Source of the DNA: Sphingobacteriaceae bacterium
Lineage (GTDB): Bacteria; Bacteroidota; Bacteroidia; Sphingobacteriales; Sphingobacteriaceae
DNA length: 34,136 bases
Assembly (NCBI GenBank): GCA_947460875.1
Contig: CANHGR010000017.1
Span: 1-34,136, forward strand
Direction: 5' to 3'
Shown here: positions 5,570-32,322 of the stretch, piece by piece
How the letters are laid out: each line of letters starts with the position of its first letter
How positions within the stretch are numbered: position 1 is the first letter of the stretch
The notes under the pieces: generated by a model
Databases searched by the model: none
Told to the model about the DNA's origin: nothing
What the model saw: the letters and a program-made list of their open reading frames with translations, nothing else
Position numbers and translations under genes: made by a program

Positions 5570-7711
5570 ATGAATAAAGTCTATGGATACATCATGCGTA
5601 TACCTCCTAAATACCGGAAAAAAGCAGCTATAACGCTCCTGGCTATTATTTTATTGGTTTTTTTGACCGGTGTTGTGGCCCTTGCGATGCGAGATGCTAT
5701 TTTAAAATCTGTTGTTGAAAGGGGAATTAGTAAAGCCAAACGTGAATATAATTTAAATGTAAAAATTAAGGAAGCGAAGTTTTCAGGATTAACGACCCTT
5801 GTATTTGACGAAGTTTCGGTTGTCCCTCAAGAAAGAGATAGCCTTGCCTATGTTAAGAGTCTCAGAGTAGGGATACGATTTATCCCTCTTATTTTCGGGA
5901 ATATTAAGCTTTCGGAACTTAAAATCAGTGACGCTAGTATCAACCTTATCAAAAAAGACAGCATAAGTAATTATGATTTTCTTTTCAAAAAAACAAGCAC
6001 CGACACCTTAAAAGCCAAATCAAGCTTAGACCTCGCAGAATTTGTCAATGGATTACTAAATAATCTACTTAACAAGATTCCGGAGGATTTGGATATCCAG
6101 AATTTTCACTTATCATATATTGAGGATGGCAACTGTGTAACGTTCAATGCTAGTTCTGCTATTATTGAGGATGGCGATGTAAGGTCGACGATTTTTGTTA
6201 ACGATAAAGAATCAATCTGGCATGTGCAAGGCAGCGTGAACCAGGATGAACGACAGTTTGACCTGACTTTATCGGCAGATGGAAAGAAAGTAGAAATCCC
6301 CTTTATAGACAAAAGATATAATCTTAAGATCAATTTCGATAAAGTTCGCGCCCAAATGAACAGCGTTAACATGGGCAGAGGTGAACTTTCTATAATAGGG
6401 AATTGTTCTATCGAGAATTTGTTGTTCAATCACACGGATGTGGCAGCAAACGATATTTTCTTACCTAAAGGATCGCTGAATGCAAAGTTGATAATTGGCG
6501 AAAATTTTATTGCACTTGACAGCTCTTCTGTCATTCATCTAAAAAATATTGAAGCCAATCCTTATCTAAAATATACCGTTTCCCCCTCTAAAACTTATGC
6601 CTTAAAACTTCGTACTAATGAAGTAGATGCTCAAGAGCTTTTTGACTCTTTTCCGCAGGGAATGTTTGAATCATTAGAAGGAATTAAAGTGTCTGGCAAA
6701 TTAAAATACGCCATGAACTTTTTCCTCGATAGCGAAAAGCCAAACGAAGTCGTATTTGATTCCGGGTTTGAGAGAAAGGACTTCAAGATTGTAAGCTTCG
6801 GAAAAACGAATCTGCAAAAAATCAACGGCACGTTTATACATACCCCGTTTGAATACGGAAGACCCACTAGAAGCATCGTCATCGGTCCAGAAAACCCAAA
6901 TTACGTTTCTTTAGAAAACATCTCTCCCGACCTTATAAATGCAGTTATGACTGCAGAAGACCCCTCATTTTTTGGGCACCGCGGGTTTGTAATGCAGGCG
7001 TTTAGCAACTCCATAACGGCAAATTTTAAAGCCAAATCATTCAAGAGAGGAGGTAGTACAATCTCGATGCAACTTGTGAAAAATGTTTATCTAAATCGCC
7101 AGAAAACGTTAGTCAGAAAACTTGAGGAAATTTTGATCGTTTGGTTAATTGAAAATAACCGTCTTTCGTCCAAATCTAGAATGCTCGAAGTTTACCTTAA
7201 TCTCATCGAATGGGGAAGGAGCGTTTATGGAATAAACGAAGCGTCACATTATTACTTTGATAAACATCCTTCACAACTGTCGCTGGGCGAAAGTATTTTC
7301 CTAGCTAATATTGTTCCACGGCCCAAATCATCGCTCTATTTCTTTGAAAGCGATGGGAGTTTACGTGCTTCGCTTAGAGATTATTTCAATTTCGTTGGCG
7401 GAGTAATGGCTAGACGGGGTTATGCTGTTGCAGACACTGCAAATTCTTATGGCTTTTATAGTGTAAGATTAAAAGAAAGTCTACGATCTCAAATAGTACC
7501 TCTTGACTTTTTGATTAATGACCCTTTAATGATGGATGATGAGATGGAAGAAGATCGCAAGATTTTGGAGGATATATTGAAGAAAACTTCTGATACGATT
7601 AAAATACAGGATATTCCTAACTTAAAAGTGAAGCCCCAAGACACCCTTAGAACATCAGCAGACATACGAAGAGAGCGCAGAGAAAGTAGACGACAGGAAA
7701 GGATCAAATAG
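5570..7711 (+). CDS. Membrane-anchored GT51 peptidoglycan glycosyltransferase with AsmA-like N-terminal region
   Basis: The protein has 713 residues. A transmembrane anchor lies at about 21-40. Residues 50-430 are rich in beta strands and resemble AsmA/TamB-type repeats (for example LKISDASINLIKKDS); this comparison is by eye. From about 445 to 610 there is a complete GT51 glycosyltransferase domain: the catalytic glutamate in AEDPSFFGHRGF (Glu463), GGSTISMQLVKNVYL (494 onward), RKLEEI, EVYLNLIEWG, and the final LANIVPRPKSSLY. It should polymerise lipid II at the outer face of the inner membrane. No penicillin-binding transpeptidase domain follows, only a charged tail rich in Arg and Glu. The domain order is unlike a normal bifunctional PBP or a short MtgA. 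hpt follows 42 nt later. Confidence 0.88.
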   Translation: MNKVYGYIMRIPPKYRKKAAITLLAIILLVFLTGVVALAMRDAILKSVVERGISKAKREYNLNVKIKEAKFSGLTTLVFDEVSVVPQERDSLAYVKSLRVGIRFIPLIFGNIKLSELKISDASINLIKKDSISNYDFLFKKTSTDTLKAKSSLDLAEFVNGLLNNLLNKIPEDLDIQNFHLSYIEDGNCVTFNASSAIIEDGDVRSTIFVNDKESIWHVQGSVNQDERQFDLTLSADGKKVEIPFIDKRYNLKINFDKVRAQMNSVNMGRGELSIIGNCSIENLLFNHTDVAANDIFLPKGSLNAKLIIGENFIALDSSSVIHLKNIEANPYLKYTVSPSKTYALKLRTNEVDAQELFDSFPQGMFESLEGIKVSGKLKYAMNFFLDSEKPNEVVFDSGFERKDFKIVSFGKTNLQKINGTFIHTPFEYGRPTRSIVIGPENPNYVSLENISPDLINAVMTAEDPSFFGHRGFVMQAFSNSITANFKAKSFKRGGSTISMQLVKNVYLNRQKTLVRKLEEILIVWLIENNRLSSKSRMLEVYLNLIEWGRSVYGINEASHYYFDKHPSQLSLGESIFLANIVPRPKSSLYFFESDGSLRASLRDYFNFVGGVMARRGYAVADTANSYGFYSVRLKESLRSQIVPLDFLINDPLMMDDEMEEDRKILEDILKKTSDTIKIQDIPNLKVKPQDTLRTSADIRRERRESRRQERIK

Positions 7712-7753: not shown

Positions 7754-8293
7754 ATGAAAATTCAAATTGACGGTAAGGAGTTTGAAATGCTTCTTGGTTA
7801 TGAGCAAATTAAAAAGCGCATCAGGCTTCTTGGAATTCAATTGAATGTTGATTATGAAAATCGGGTACCTGTTTTTCTAGGTGTACTTAATGGCAGTTTT
7901 ATGTTCATCGCCGACCTAATAAAAGAAATTGACATCGCTTCAGAAATTACATTCGTCAAGATATCTTCATATGAAGGTTCTAAAAACACCGGCAAAATTA
8001 TAGAAGAAATCGGATTAACGATGAATTTAAAAGACCGCGACGTGATCATCGTTGAAGATATTGTTGATTCTGGAAACACCCTGAAATACCTAATTGAAAA
8101 AGTAAAGGCTCAATCTCCGGCATCTGTGAATGTCTGTACGCTATTGATAAAACCCAATTCGATAAAACACGCTATCGATGAAATTACTTATTTAGGTTTT
8201 GAAATTCCGAATGATTTTGTCGTGGGGTATGGTCTGGATTATAAAGGATTAGGCCGAAATTTAAAGGATATCTATAGAGCGATCCATATTTGA
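7754..8293 (+). CDS. hpt: Hypoxanthine phosphoribosyltransferase
   Basis: The enzyme salvages hypoxanthine (and guanine) to the nucleotide using PRPP. Its PRPP-binding signature VIIVEDIVDSGNTL is at residues 97-110. The N-terminal PVFLGVLNGSFMFIADL segment and the SSYEGSKNTG flexible-loop region are also typical. The length of 179 residues is normal. The start is an ATG with TAAATTTC directly before it, one mismatch from the -7 consensus. It lies between the GT51 gene and psd on the same strand, possibly as one transcription unit, although the gaps (42 and 45 nt) leave room for separate promoters. Confidence 0.95.
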   Translation: MKIQIDGKEFEMLLGYEQIKKRIRLLGIQLNVDYENRVPVFLGVLNGSFMFIADLIKEIDIASEITFVKISSYEGSKNTGKIIEEIGLTMNLKDRDVIIVEDIVDSGNTLKYLIEKVKAQSPASVNVCTLLIKPNSIKHAIDEITYLGFEIPNDFVVGYGLDYKGLGRNLKDIYRAIHI

Positions 8294-8338
8294 AACCTAA
8301 TTGGGATATTAGCATCTTTACGCTTTAATATTTAAACT

Positions 8339-8998
8339 ATGACTATTCACAAAGAAGGTTATACTTCAATTGCCTTATGCTTACTATTTGTTTTTGTTGT
8401 AGACGCATTAGTGCATTACTATTTGCCAGATTATGCTATAATTCAATGGATTATATATTTTCTTTCCTTTTTACTATTTGTTATCGTCCTGCAATTTTTT
8501 AGAAGTCCGGCGATTTCGATAAAATTAGATGAAAAACACGTGCTTTGCCCGGCCGATGGAAAAGTTGTTGTCATTGAAGAAGTGGCAGAGACAGAATTCT
8601 TAAAAGACAGACGTATCCAAGTTTCCATTTTTATGTCGCCAATTAATGTACATATTAACAGGAATCCCATTAGTGGTGTGGTAAAATTTTTTAAATACCA
8701 TCCCGGAAAGTACTTATTTGCTTGGGATCCAAAATCCTCTACAGATAATGAACGTACCACCATCGTTGTGGAAAACAAAAAAGGTGTGCCGATTCTATTT
8801 AGGCAAATAGCAGGAGCGCTTGCTCGTCGGATAGTCTGGTATATAAGAGAAGGGGGGGAAGTAAAACAGGGAGACGAGTTCGGCTTTATAAAGTTCGGTT
8901 CAAGAGTTGATGTGTTTCTACCTTTAGGAACAAAGGTAAATGTACAATTGAACGACGTAGTCAAAGGCGGAATTACCGTTCTAGCCGAATTAGGATAA
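8339..8998 (+). CDS. psd: Phosphatidylserine decarboxylase proenzyme (short, PSD-A type)
   Basis: The enzyme makes phosphatidylethanolamine, the main Bacteroidota phospholipid, from phosphatidylserine. It is a pyruvoyl enzyme: the chain self-cleaves between Gly187 and Ser188 in FIKFGSRVDVF, and the serine becomes the pyruvoyl group. Two membrane segments at about 9-28 and 33-53 anchor it in the inner membrane. The conserved core is clear (FMSPINVHINRNPISG, HPGKYLFAWDPKSS). The length of 219 residues matches the short family. A run of seven G at 8852-8858 lies within the gene, encoding Gly-Gly; the frame is intact. cdsA, which acts earlier in the same pathway, is 10 kb away. Confidence 0.95.
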   Translation: MTIHKEGYTSIALCLLFVFVVDALVHYYLPDYAIIQWIIYFLSFLLFVIVLQFFRSPAISIKLDEKHVLCPADGKVVVIEEVAETEFLKDRRIQVSIFMSPINVHINRNPISGVVKFFKYHPGKYLFAWDPKSSTDNERTTIVVENKKGVPILFRQIAGALARRIVWYIREGGEVKQGDEFGFIKFGSRVDVFLPLGTKVNVQLNDVVKGGITVLAELG

Positions 8999-10876: not shown

Positions 10877-11539
10877 TTATTCCGGTTTATCTTCTGCTGC
10901 CGGAGCTTCTTCAACAGCTGGCGCTTCTTCCAAAACCGGCGCTTCTTCTGCAACTGGTTCTTCCATGGCCGGTGCTTCTGCTGCCACTTCTTCAGATACT
11001 TCAGCTATTGGAGCATCTTCAACAGCCGCTTCAACTTCTTGCTCTTCCGTAGCTACTTCTTCTTCCGGCTCTTCAGCTGGAGGAGTATTTTTAGCAATCA
11101 CAGCCGCCGCTCTTTCTTCTTTCTTTTTAGCTTCTGCAGCAAAAGCAGCTTTACGTAATTCATCTTTAGAGCTATTTAACCCTTCTTTCTTTCCTTCAAT
11201 TCTTGCTTCCTTACCTTTCAGCCATTCAGCAAACTTAACATCTGCTTGTTCTTGGGTTAAAGCACCTTTTTTGATACCACCTTCAAGGTGTTTCTTGTAT
11301 AAAACGCCTTTGTAAGAAAGTATAGCTCTGCAAGTATCGGTAGGTTGTGCACCTTTATTTACCCAGTCTAATGTTTTATCAAAATTGATGTCAACTGTTG
11401 CAGGGTTGGTATTAGGATCATATGAACCTAATCGCTCAATAAACTTGCCGTCTCTAGGTGAACGAGCATCTGCTACTACCACATGATAAAAAGGCTTGCC
11501 CTTTTTACCGAATCTTTGCAATCTGATTTTAGTTGCCAT
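10877..11539 (-). CDS. rpsP: 30S ribosomal protein S16 with long acidic C-terminal extension
   Basis: Residues 1-85 are a standard S16 protein ([34 protein letters not shown]). S16 is normally 80-90 residues long; this one has 220. Residues 86-150 are charged and helical with many Lys and Ala. Residues 151-220 are made almost only of Glu, Ala, Pro and Val, with about 26 acidic residues and a single lysine. Long S16 tails are, from memory, common in Bacteroidota, so this is probably a lineage trait and not an assembly error. The tail should be disordered and its role is unknown. It is the first gene of the cluster, with a promoter box 55 nt upstream. Confidence 0.96.
10882..11085 (-). repeat. 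Imperfect low-complexity repeat encoding the S16 acidic tail
   Basis: The DNA encoding the S16 tail repeats units such as GAAGAAGCGCC and GAAGAAGCTCC (minus strand) with variable spacing. It gives Glu-Glu-Ala-Pro steps. Such tracts can gain or lose units by slippage in multiples of three. The same composition creates long open frames on the other strand that I do not consider genes. Confidence 0.6.
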
Positions 11540-18186: not shown

Positions 18187-18993
18187 ATGAAGACAAGAGC
18201 TATTACAGGATTTTTCTTTGTTATCGTAATGCTTGCTTCAATGCTGACTGGCGAGTATACGTTCACACTTTTTTTTTCAGTTCTAAGCCTTTTTTGCCTT
18301 AATGAATTTTACGGTCTGGTTAATAATGAAAATCTAAAACCTCAGCGTTTAAGCGGTACGCTATTGGCACTTTCGTTACTTCTCTGGCAAGGCTTTTACT
18401 TTTTAAAAGGAACAGAGTTTGGATATATTCTGATAACCGTTCCGGTAGGAATTTTCGTATTCTTCGTTGAGTTGTACCGTTCTAACAAAAACCCATTTCA
18501 AAATATTTCTTACACCTTTTTAGGTATCATTTTTGCGGTTTTGCCCTTTAGTTTTTTTCACGCAATTGCTTTTATTGATGGTAACTACAATTTTCATTAC
18601 CCTTTAGGATTTTTTCTGATGCTTTGGGCTAATGATACCGGAGCCTACCTTGTAGGTATAAAATTTGGGAAAATTCGCCTATTTGAGCGGCATTCGCCGA
18701 AAAAATCTTGGGAAGGTTTTGCAGGAGGCGTGGTAACCAGTTTACTTGTTGGATTAATTCTGGCAAATTATTTTACAGAACTTGCGCTGGTACATTGGGC
18801 TGTTATTTCTCTAATCATATCTGTTGTAGGAACTTACGGTGATCTCACAGAATCGATGCTCAAGCGTAGTCTTGATAAAAAAGATTCCGGCTCACTTCTG
18901 CCCGGTCACGGTGGTTTGCTCGATCGTTTCGATGGACTTTTGTTAAGCGCGCCCTTGGTTCTCGTATATTTATACTTCATTTTTTCTTATTAA
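18187..18993 (+). CDS. cdsA: Phosphatidate cytidylyltransferase
   Basis: CdsA makes CDP-diacylglycerol from phosphatidate and CTP, the precursor of phosphatidylserine and phosphatidylglycerol. The 268 residues form about seven membrane spans. The signature is intact near the C-terminus: MLKRSLDKKDSGSLLPGHGG, then LLDRFDGLL, preceded by SPKKSWEGFAGG. The start follows the DUF2007 stop without a gap. psd, which acts later in the same pathway, is at 8339-8998. The presence of both marks this strain as making phosphatidylethanolamine by the PS route. Confidence 0.97.
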   Translation: MKTRAITGFFFVIVMLASMLTGEYTFTLFFSVLSLFCLNEFYGLVNNENLKPQRLSGTLLALSLLLWQGFYFLKGTEFGYILITVPVGIFVFFVELYRSNKNPFQNISYTFLGIIFAVLPFSFFHAIAFIDGNYNFHYPLGFFLMLWANDTGAYLVGIKFGKIRLFERHSPKKSWEGFAGGVVTSLLVGLILANYFTELALVHWAVISLIISVVGTYGDLTESMLKRSLDKKDSGSLLPGHGGLLDRFDGLLLSAPLVLVYLYFIFSY

Positions 18994-29950: not shown

Positions 29951-30006
29951 TTCGAAATAATATTGCTTAAAAAATTTAGTTCATAATAAGTATCTTGTGG
30001 CATCGC

Positions 30007-32322
30007 ATGGCAACAGAATTAAAATATCCTTTCTTCGAAAAACTGCAGGATATCAGCTTTATTCTTCGGGGAATATGGTTCCTTATTTTATTTGATTTGC
30101 TAGCGCTCTATGCCTTCTTTATCGCTTCCCAAGGAACAGATGTTCTTTTAACAATTTCAGAAGACCTGGGTGGATCCGAAATTTTTACTCAAGCCTGGAC
30201 TGGCACATTTCTAATTATTGCTCTCTTTTTCTGGTGTGTCGTCTCTGAATTTTGTACCCGTTTTCTGATTTATATCACAGATAATTCCGGTAAGTCATTG
30301 GCGCCACATCGAGTTCATGCCAGAAAGTCCTTCCAATTGTTTGCTGCGAAGGTTTCACTGTTTTTTCCGTTAGCACTAATGTTTTTCGCTTTTATAAAAG
30401 CGTTGTGGATCAACTATTCAGATCTCAACCAAACAAAGAATCTAACAGATCTCAACCAGATCATAGGTGGTACCCTGATCATTATTTCTCTGATTGTACT
30501 TGAAACAGTATTAGTTTATAAACTATATCCGGGGGGGTGGATCAGATTAGTATCCGAAAAATATAAAAGTCTTTATTGGCTTTGCCTTACCGTGATAGAA
30601 AAGCAATGGCTGATCAAGCTTTACGGAATCCTTGATGACGTACGGGTAGACATCCCAGTTACTAATAAAAATTTTACGGGAGCTGATCTTCCCAGAGATG
30701 TAGAACTGCCTAACGGGATGAGACTTCCCGAGTCAACGTATTTTCAGCCTTATAGCAGTAATCCAAAAAAAGAGGGAGGCATCAATATCTGGATGTTTAA
30801 GGTTCATATTCGCTTTTTTCATTCACTTTTCAGGCAGCTGATTGTTTTTGGGATTCTTTCTGTTTGCCTTATTTTCATTTTTGGTTCCTTATTACCTGTT
30901 GAAGCATATCTGAACATAGGTGCCGCTGCACTCGTATGTCTCGCTTTTGCCTGCTGGCAGATCATCTATGTTTTACTTCACGTTCTTGATAAAACACAAT
31001 CTGTTTTTCCGGTACGCTTATTCGTGATAGGATTATTGCTGTTTAGCTCAATCACAAATAGTGATCACCCCGTTAGAGAATTAAGCGGCATTAATACAAA
31101 ACGACAAACGCTGGATGAACATTTCAACAATTGGTACGAAAACCTTCGGAATGATACATTAGCCTCTACCTATTACAGAATTGGATTAAAAGATAGCATT
31201 CCTGTTATCTTTATCGCAGCAGAGGGTGGAGCACTACGTACCGGAGCTTTTACAGCGATGACATTAGCAAAGCTTCAGGACACCTTCCCTGAATTTTACA
31301 AATATGTATACTGTTACAGCGGTGTTTCGGGTGGTGCTCTGGGCAGCAACTTCTTCAACGCAGAGCTCTTACGGCACGTCAATAAGGAAGATACGACCAC
31401 TTACACCTACGCCACTCAAAGGTTTTTTAAAAACGATTTTCTTGCTCCCGTTACCGGGAAATTGGTTTTTGGGGAAGTGATTAATTATTTCATTCCATGG
31501 CATATTGAAAGTATGGATAGGGCGATTGCTCTTGAACAAATCTGGGAATATGCGTGGAAACAGATTTATCCGGCCGAAAAACATAATATTCTCGAAGAAT
31601 CATTTAACGGTACAATAAAAAGTAACCTTCCTGCGGTTTTCATCAATACTACCGAAGTTGAGACAGGTCTTCAGTGCGTATGGAGCAGCGTAGAACTCAG
31701 CTCTATCCCGCTATACCAACAGCGTGATCTATACAGACGAGTTAATAAAGAATTGGCATATAGCACAGCTATTAACTTGAGCACCAGGTTTCCCTTAATT
31801 TCTCCGGGCGCAAGCTTCTCGTACAAGATAAAAGAAGGGAGAGATACTGTAAATGCAAGAAGGCATTTTGTTGATGGAGGGTATTACGAAAACAAAGGCG
31901 CAGAAACCCTAATTCAAATAATGCAAGCCTTAAAGTTGAAACGCTTACCTATCAAGCCTTATGTGCTCCAGTTCAATTTTGGTGAAACAGACTCTTCTTT
32001 TATCAGCGTAAATAGCTTTAACGAAATCAAGGAAGTTGTAAGCGGTATTTACAACACGCGTGAAGGAAGGGGTGCTATCTCGCAATATCAGCTTCAGCAA
32101 TTTGTAAGAGATAGCCTTAAGGGAGAATTTATAAATCTAAACCTAACCTTAAACACCAAGAGTATTCCGATGAACTGGATACTTAGCAACACGGCCGTAA
32201 ATAGGTTAAGCGCACTGATTGGTCAATCAGTGAATATGACTAGCGACAATGGCAGTAACGATAAACAGGAATTATCTAAACTATTCTTATATAATAAAGA
32301 TTATACGCGGAAGCGAGATTAG
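30007..32322 (+). CDS. Multi-spanning membrane protein with patatin-like phospholipase domain
   Basis: The 771-residue protein has a membrane part and a hydrolase part. Membrane helices lie at about 22-41, 66-84, 113-133, 152-171, 276-296, 302-325 and perhaps 336-350. From about 398 the patatin fold begins: the oxyanion loop AAEGGALRTG, nucleophile Ser441 in YSGVSGGALGSN, and the partner Asp623 in FVDGGYYENKGAE. So it is a predicted Ser-Asp lipid acyl hydrolase. I use the ATG at 30007; a TTG at 29995 is also in frame. Seven G (30531-30537) lie in the membrane part, in frame. Its neighbours give no hint of substrate. Patatins with so large a membrane region are less common than soluble or autotransported ones. 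Confidence 0.88.
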   Translation: MATELKYPFFEKLQDISFILRGIWFLILFDLLALYAFFIASQGTDVLLTISEDLGGSEIFTQAWTGTFLIIALFFWCVVSEFCTRFLIYITDNSGKSLAPHRVHARKSFQLFAAKVSLFFPLALMFFAFIKALWINYSDLNQTKNLTDLNQIIGGTLIIISLIVLETVLVYKLYPGGWIRLVSEKYKSLYWLCLTVIEKQWLIKLYGILDDVRVDIPVTNKNFTGADLPRDVELPNGMRLPESTYFQPYSSNPKKEGGINIWMFKVHIRFFHSLFRQLIVFGILSVCLIFIFGSLLPVEAYLNIGAAALVCLAFACWQIIYVLLHVLDKTQSVFPVRLFVIGLLLFSSITNSDHPVRELSGINTKRQTLDEHFNNWYENLRNDTLASTYYRIGLKDSIPVIFIAAEGGALRTGAFTAMTLAKLQDTFPEFYKYVYCYSGVSGGALGSNFFNAELLRHVNKEDTTTYTYATQRFFKNDFLAPVTGKLVFGEVINYFIPWHIESMDRAIALEQIWEYAWKQIYPAEKHNILEESFNGTIKSNLPAVFINTTEVETGLQCVWSSVELSSIPLYQQRDLYRRVNKELAYSTAINLSTRFPLISPGASFSYKIKEGRDTVNARRHFVDGGYYENKGAETLIQIMQALKLKRLPIKPYVLQFNFGETDSSFISVNSFNEIKEVVSGIYNTREGRGAISQYQLQQFVRDSLKGEFINLNLTLNTKSIPMNWILSNTAVNRLSALIGQSVNMTSDNGSNDKQELSKLFLYNKDYTRKRD

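Follow-up and report, generated by a model that had tools for sequence, protein, structure and literature searches.

Peptidoglycan synthesis and outer-membrane lipid transport are mostly separate research subjects, and the locus described here raises the question of what one protein does when it combines a glycan polymerase domain with a region that resembles lipid-carrying grooves. The window, meaning the whole stretch of DNA that was analysed, comprises 34,136 nucleotides from a Sphingobacteriaceae bacterium (assembly GCA_947460875.1, contig CANHGR010000017.1). A sequence-only reading of this DNA had proposed that one of its genes encodes a GT51 glycosyltransferase fused to a long AsmA-like region with no transpeptidase. 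A glycan polymerase and a putative lipid-groove domain in one conserved protein would make a physical link between the two processes testable, for example in Flavobacterium or Pedobacter.

Gene and protein layout

The gene is a single open reading frame on the forward strand, and the following features were assigned to it.

5570-7711, + strand: AsmA-GT51 gene, single open reading frame of 713 amino acids, stop codon included in the coordinates
5606-5686, + strand: N-terminal membrane helix, residues 13-39, from a predicted helix and hydrophobic sequence
5690-5998, + strand: AsmA/Chorein-N-like N-terminal motif, residues 41-143, from a sub-threshold Pfam AsmA match at 14-143
5753-6796, + strand: beta groove predicted by the AlphaFold2 model for residues 62-409, with 19 strands of at least 3 residues
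6887-7330, + strand: GT51 peptidoglycan glycosyltransferase domain, residues 440-587, from PF00912 and Foldseek to 3nb6
6956-6958, + strand: E463, the first of the two catalytic Glu residues, equivalent to E100 of S. aureus MGT, Glu in 96 of 96 family sequences
6989-6991, + strand: V474, in place of motif I Asp111, Asp in none of 96 family sequences
7067-7069, + strand: M500, where motif II normally has Gln136; 95 of 96 family sequences have Met
7127-7129, + strand: E520, second catalytic Glu, Glu in 96 of 96 family sequences
7502-7708, + strand: basic, variable C-terminal tail, residues 645-713, partly of low confidence by pLDDT

A second ATG lies at 5594 (residue 9), and because it matches the start position of several homologues the true start of the gene may be there rather than at 5570. 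Between the membrane helix and the GT51 domain the protein has an arm of about 370 residues that is mostly beta, and 126 residues follow the GT51 domain, ending in a tail that is variable or short in many homologues. When the protein was scanned with Pfam at E values up to 10, only Transgly (PF00912, 151.2 bits) and the sub-threshold AsmA match were returned and no transpeptidase domain was found, which upholds the domain arrangement proposed earlier. A transpeptidase concealed in the tail was likewise ruled out, as Pfam gives no match there. The source genome (2.21 Mb in 26 contigs, 99% complete) contains four GT51 matches: two class A-length frames of 816 and 835 aa, an MtgA-like frame of 276 aa and the window protein.

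Sequence and predicted structure of the N-terminal arm

The Pfam AsmA profile matched residues 14-143 of the window protein with 18.4 bits, under its cut-off of 29.8, so we call the protein AsmA-like and not a Pfam AsmA member. The NCBIfam LIC_11026 family gave a weak match at residues 17-253 (29.6 bits, cut-off 325), and residues 32-434 searched alone gave no Pfam match. Across the family, 26 of 77 N-terminal regions matched Pfam DUF748 and 20 of 77 matched AsmA at E <= 0.01. An N-terminal profile (A2) matched the TamB of the source genome, a 1490-aa frame identified by PF04357 (122 bits), with an E value of 3.4e-7 over positions 3-135. In that genome the AsmA profile at E <= 0.01 matched only TamB and the window protein; two more weak DUF748 matches were seen there, at the C-terminal end of the profile. 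The A2 profile, built from 11 N-terminal regions, matched 91 of the 395 Bacteroidota genomes searched. Matches ranked under the full-length family fell mostly in the N-terminal 140 or so residues of open reading frames of 1490-1790 aa and about 1030 aa, and the same rank range also held other frames of about 820-1090 aa. Two of the frames of about 1030 aa, when scanned with Pfam, were of the AsmA/YhdP/DUF748 type. Against PDB sequences, the N-terminal profile matched just 4psj, over a short segment at positions 356-373 (E 1.6e-4) with no stretch passing by itself, besides two matches with E above 0.1.

Relatives that share as little as 26% identity with the window protein still have the AsmA-type N-terminus. 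Leu107 lies 359.6 +/- 7.4 residues ahead of the first catalytic Glu in 96 family sequences, while the C-terminal length is 239.5 +/- 33.3; an arm length so nearly fixed points to a structural constraint on this region. The 96-sequence set joined A6 with the A4 rows other than L003; its members are distinct strings, many are close relatives, and two of them (L073 and L136), found on equally long contigs, are probably from one genome. A6 and A7 hold 76 of 80 loci plus the window, with L138 excluded as broken and L104, L105 and L110 excluded only to shorten the set. A5 holds 16 of the 21 A4 rows, with L072, L056, L059, L062 and the MtgA row L003 excluded, and L010 was excluded from A1 for an internal stop.

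Structure was predicted with AlphaFold2 using 77 sequences, and the resulting model had a mean pLDDT of 87.3. It contains the membrane helix at 13-39, a second helix at 41-60 and 19 strands between 62 and 409, followed by a mainly helical GT51 domain, and the pLDDT drops below 50 at residues 647-659 and 673-693. The N-terminal half had been described as beta-rich from its sequence, and the model agrees. Modelled alone, the N-terminal part reached a pLDDT of 87.4. This structure prediction, suggested earlier as a check on the AsmA likeness, gave a divided result. On one side, TamB was the top Foldseek match of the N-terminal model in the PDB (E 8e-4) and the sole match below 0.001, and the full model matched the bridge-like lipid transfer protein LPD-3 (E 1e-4) and TamB (E 4e-3). 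VIA-align of the N-terminal model also recovered Vps13 (Z 8.2), LPD-3 (Z 8.1) and Atg2 (Z 7.8). On the other side, porins equalled or outscored these groove matches in VIA-align (OccD2, Z 9.7), and the groove scores of both programs were weak. The fold comparison thus agrees with AsmA, short of proof.

The predicted strands alternate between hydrophobic and polar faces more than expected from within-strand shuffles (2.31 against 1.41, equalled in 0 of 2000 shuffles, 17 of 19 strands), with little difference between faces in strands 114-129, 173-185, 188-200 and 395-409. A soluble beta sheet could give the same two-faced strands; from the model we infer a groove that would hold lipid. The AsmA/TamB likeness claimed earlier for the whole region divides accordingly: for the first ~140 residues, homology to AsmA/TamB is well founded on profile matches, and the remaining ~270 residues of the arm would be AsmA-like by predicted fold.

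The GT51 domain and its active site

PF00912 matched residues 440-587 with 151.2 bits against a cut-off of 27, and the full model matched the Aquifex (A. aeolicus) GT51 domain 3nb6 (Foldseek E 2.7e-9, TMt 0.81). The best NCBIfam match was the monofunctional family TIGR02070, at 147.7 bits and under its cut-off of 182.65. For S. aureus MGT, PMC6053601 names E100 as catalytic and lists as motif residues D101, H107, G109, D111, Q129, G130, G131, S132, T133, Q136 and K153. These residues were mapped onto the window protein by eye. Besides the equivalent of E100, the window protein keeps 8 of the 11 motif residues (D464, H470, G472, G494, G495, S496, T497 and K517) and is changed at 3 of 11 (D111 is V474, Q129 is R493 and Q136 is M500). 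The second catalytic residue, E520, we take to be E156 of the S. aureus enzyme.

Both catalytic Glu residues, E463 and E520, are conserved in all 96 family sequences, as are D464, G472, S496, Q501, N505, K512, R516, K517, Y542, N544, G549, Y553 and G554. K504 and T497 are each kept in 94 of 96 (Lys504 is Arg in 2), and 10 of 96 have Asn where motif I has His470. Counts were made from the eight commonest residues at each position, and at position 474 these sum to all 96. At position 111, Asp occurs in 0 of 96 AsmA-GT51 sequences compared to 31 of 31 MtgA-size and class A rows; position 136 is Met in 95 of 96 AsmA-GT51 sequences and Gln in 30 of 31 of the other rows. At position 129, 95 of 96 have Arg, but ordinary GT51s vary there too. 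As judged from this alignment, loss of Asp111 and Gln136 marks the AsmA-GT51 family, because these two residues are near-invariant in MtgA-size and class A rows and position 129 varies there. The earlier statement that all GT51 motifs are present therefore holds for the GT51 domain and both catalytic Glu residues and needs qualifying at Asp111 and Gln136, which are changed family-wide; these pocket changes are new relative to that reading.

One class A-size GT51 protein of 739 aa (L179, genome G037) carries the motif II variant STISMQ, which was otherwise seen in AsmA-GT51 proteins. Met500 as a strict family hallmark is weakened, since this protein also has Met at 136.

In PMC6053601, Asp111 and Gln136 are placed around a pocket beneath the catalytic site. 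The altered pocket of the AsmA-GT51 family, as read from its residues, would fit either a different kind of contact with the lipid or a change of substrate.

Distribution and phylogeny

Sixty genomes were searched for relatives extending beyond the GT51 region. All 36 of the 36 other members of the source organism's family had one, as did 3 of 23 genomes from other families of the class. Among these relatives, one (G032) covers the protein only to residue 513, in a 518-aa frame, and two (G006 and G027) each have one internal stop. A broader full-length profile was then run against 395 Bacteroidota genomes. In 46 of them, the source genome included, it matched along almost its entire length with 458-913 bits; the next matches listed reached at most 198 bits and covered about the GT51 domain only. 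Both regions lie in one open reading frame in each of the 46, which rules out a chance neighbour or frame fusion and bears out the expectation, voiced in the sequence-only reading, that similar proteins occur in other Bacteroidota. Distribution was patchy outside the source organism's family, and in the class of the genome G063 3 of 98 genomes had a match. Carriers among the matches listed (80 of 571 confirmed loci) include Pedobacter, Mucilaginibacter, Sphingobacterium, Arcticibacter, Olivibacter, Parapedobacter, Spirosoma, Larkinella and Flavobacterium. The Sphingobacterium alimentarium copy (L138, from 4974 onward) is disrupted: its frame ends after 178 codons, and another piece comes behind it. 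Among plasmid records, 369 had any match, of which one, a Parabacteroides distasonis record, covered at least 80%. A Parabacteroides distasonis copy is annotated "biosynthetic peptidoglycan transglycosylase", a label that leaves over half of its length unmentioned.

In a maximum-likelihood tree built from 75 GT51 domains, a branch with SH-aLRT support of 99 sets apart the 44 AsmA-GT51 rows, whose frames all measure 643-787 aa. The branch leading to this clade is long (1.41). The 6 MtgA-size rows grouped together (SH-aLRT 94), as did the 25 class A rows (98). The tree came from a quick search over 167 columns and is unrooted with SH-aLRT support only; its groups were labelled by the motif ST[ILV][ST]MQ, with L084 added and L179, whose place is unsure, removed by hand. 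This topology fits, without proving, a single origin of the AsmA and GT51 pairing. These monofunctional GT51 proteins with their AsmA-type arm are an old family, conserved in part of the Bacteroidota.

A search of open-licence PMC papers found no account of an AsmA-GT51 protein, in keeping with the earlier impression of a family without a described role. Seven AsmA-like proteins were counted in F. johnsoniae in PMC12045153, and the words "transglycosylase" and "GT51" do not appear in its main text.

Gene context

Ten labelled genes of the window were sought in 100 loci, some of which end at contig ends; mrp was found in 60, hpt in 51 and psd in 28. Read from the listing by eye, hpt was the next labelled gene in 42 of the 100. 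The Spirosoma, Larkinella and Flavobacterium loci were without mrp, hpt and psd. Other neighbours vary and include an esterase, ribosome recycling factor, Cas6, an amidohydrolase, MlaE, OEP and what we take to be a RadA-like ATPase. Gene context was rejected as a functional guide, as no steady theme, lipid included, was seen among the neighbours. In one lineage (G063, L061:4500-9301) a phospholipid transport set, made up of mlaE, an ABC ATPase gene and mlaD, lies directly behind the orthologue in the same orientation.

Within the window, an hpt-like phosphoribosyltransferase gene and then psd (phosphatidylserine decarboxylase) lie downstream of the AsmA-GT51 gene at 7754-8998, and a CTP_transf_1 (CdsA-type) gene lies at 18187-18993. 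The window also holds a 775-aa open reading frame at 29995-32322 with no Pfam match at E <= 1e-5, and at 10877-11539 a ribosomal protein S16 with a tail, in which the S16 profile matches only residues 9-67 of 220.

Proposed function and alternatives

Our preferred explanation, held tentatively and with somewhat less than even confidence, is that the protein is a catalytically competent, inner-membrane monofunctional lipid II polymerase with a lipid-binding groove that serves it. Residues 13-39 would anchor it in the inner membrane, and residues ~41-410 would form an AsmA/TamB-type beta groove on the periplasmic face that binds the acyl or prenyl chains of lipids. At the far end of the chain the GT51 domain would polymerise lipid II into glycan, with crosslinking done by class A PBPs or other transpeptidases. 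The groove would hold the lipid part of the substrate, of the product or of a nearby phospholipid beside the altered lipid II pocket. Lipid II polymerisation by this protein is likely; the groove, its binding of lipid and the enzymatic activity we infer; which lipid is bound and how groove and polymerase are coupled are guesses.

This explanation is supported by the GT51 fold and motifs, the TamB/AsmA profile matches, the amphipathic strands, the fixed spacing, the presence of both regions on one open reading frame in 46 genomes and the mla set beside one orthologue. The family-wide pocket changes would suit an enzyme that contacts its lipid differently, and could also mean altered or lost activity. 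It is weakened by the sub-threshold AsmA match, the weak groove matches that porins equal, the four strands that are barely two-faced, the basic jaw described below, the want of steady lipid neighbours and the Asn at His470 in 10 of 96 sequences.

In a bolder form, which we consider improbable, the polymerase would work off the membrane: the groove would lift a polyprenyl tail, that of lipid II or of the nascent glycan strand, from the inner membrane and pass it to a GT51 domain with a rebuilt membrane-facing lipid II pocket, and glycan would be made at the height of the sacculus. If true, a cell-wall enzyme would here contain a lipid bridge of its own.

Nearly as likely as a lipid groove is that the arm is a mere spacer or scaffold that sets height or partners, with the GT51 domain folding back to take lipid II in the normal way and no lipid carried; we regard this as a real possibility. 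According to PMC6053601, the GT51 jaw dips into the membrane and lipid II is taken there. The mean net charge of the jaw segment was +3.3 in AsmA-GT51 (43 rows), +3.5 in MtgA (6) and +1.5 in class A (25), and a basic jaw like that of MtgA suggests that ordinary membrane binding is possible without need of a lipid arm. The near-constant arm length in 96 sequences also suits a spacer. Ten genomes of the same family, the window's included, had an MtgA-size GT51 frame in 9 and a class A-length frame in all 10, so the AsmA-GT51 protein may be an extra monofunctional polymerase in a particular place. However, a spacer accounts poorly for an AsmA-type N-terminus kept over large distances and for strands that are amphipathic beyond shuffles, and plain lipid II use does not explain two family-wide pocket changes.

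It is unlikely that the GT51 domain is degenerate or repurposed, e.g. inactive or using another polyprenyl-linked sugar. The family-wide counts at Asp111 and Gln136, set against the other GT51 rows, raised the weight of this explanation slightly, and the long branch to the AsmA-GT51 clade also suits it. Retention of both catalytic Glu residues and most other motif residues speaks against it, as does Met at 136 in the class A-size protein L179.

We give little credence to a groove that moves glycerophospholipid from the inner to the outer membrane, as is thought for YhdP, TamB and YdbH, while GT51 builds or mends peptidoglycan where the bridge meets the sacculus: the AsmA matches of the source genome being only TamB and the window protein, the Mla genes beside one orthologue and psd, which is the second gene after it in the window and occurs in 28 of 100 loci, favour it, but the Mla link is in a single lineage, hpt stands between the gene and psd, and 17-19 strands would reach only an estimated 8 nm, too short to span the periplasm alone (the TamB rod is 16 nm in PMC6791001).

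Comparison with known systems

MtgA (TIGR02070) gave the best NCBIfam match and likewise has GT51 without a transpeptidase. MtgA is about 240 aa long (242 aa in E. coli) with a helix right before GT51, whereas the window protein has about 400 AsmA-like residues before this domain. The window protein falls under the TIGR02070 cut-off, and the two form separate groups in a tree that is unrooted, so that sister status cannot be read from it. All 6 MtgA-size rows keep Asp111 and Gln136, while the AsmA-GT51 family is changed at both. Class A PBPs (PBP1a/1b/1c) have the GT51 domain in common with the window protein; unlike them, the window protein has no transpeptidase and carries GT51 on its C-terminal side, and class A rows stand apart in the tree (98%). 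The claim that the arrangement differs from both class A PBPs and MtgA is thus borne out by domain content, family cut-off and tree. With TamB and other AsmA-type proteins the window protein shares a membrane helix followed by an AsmA/Chorein-N-like motif and predicted extended beta structure, but it is shorter and has an enzyme domain in place of the remaining beta rod.
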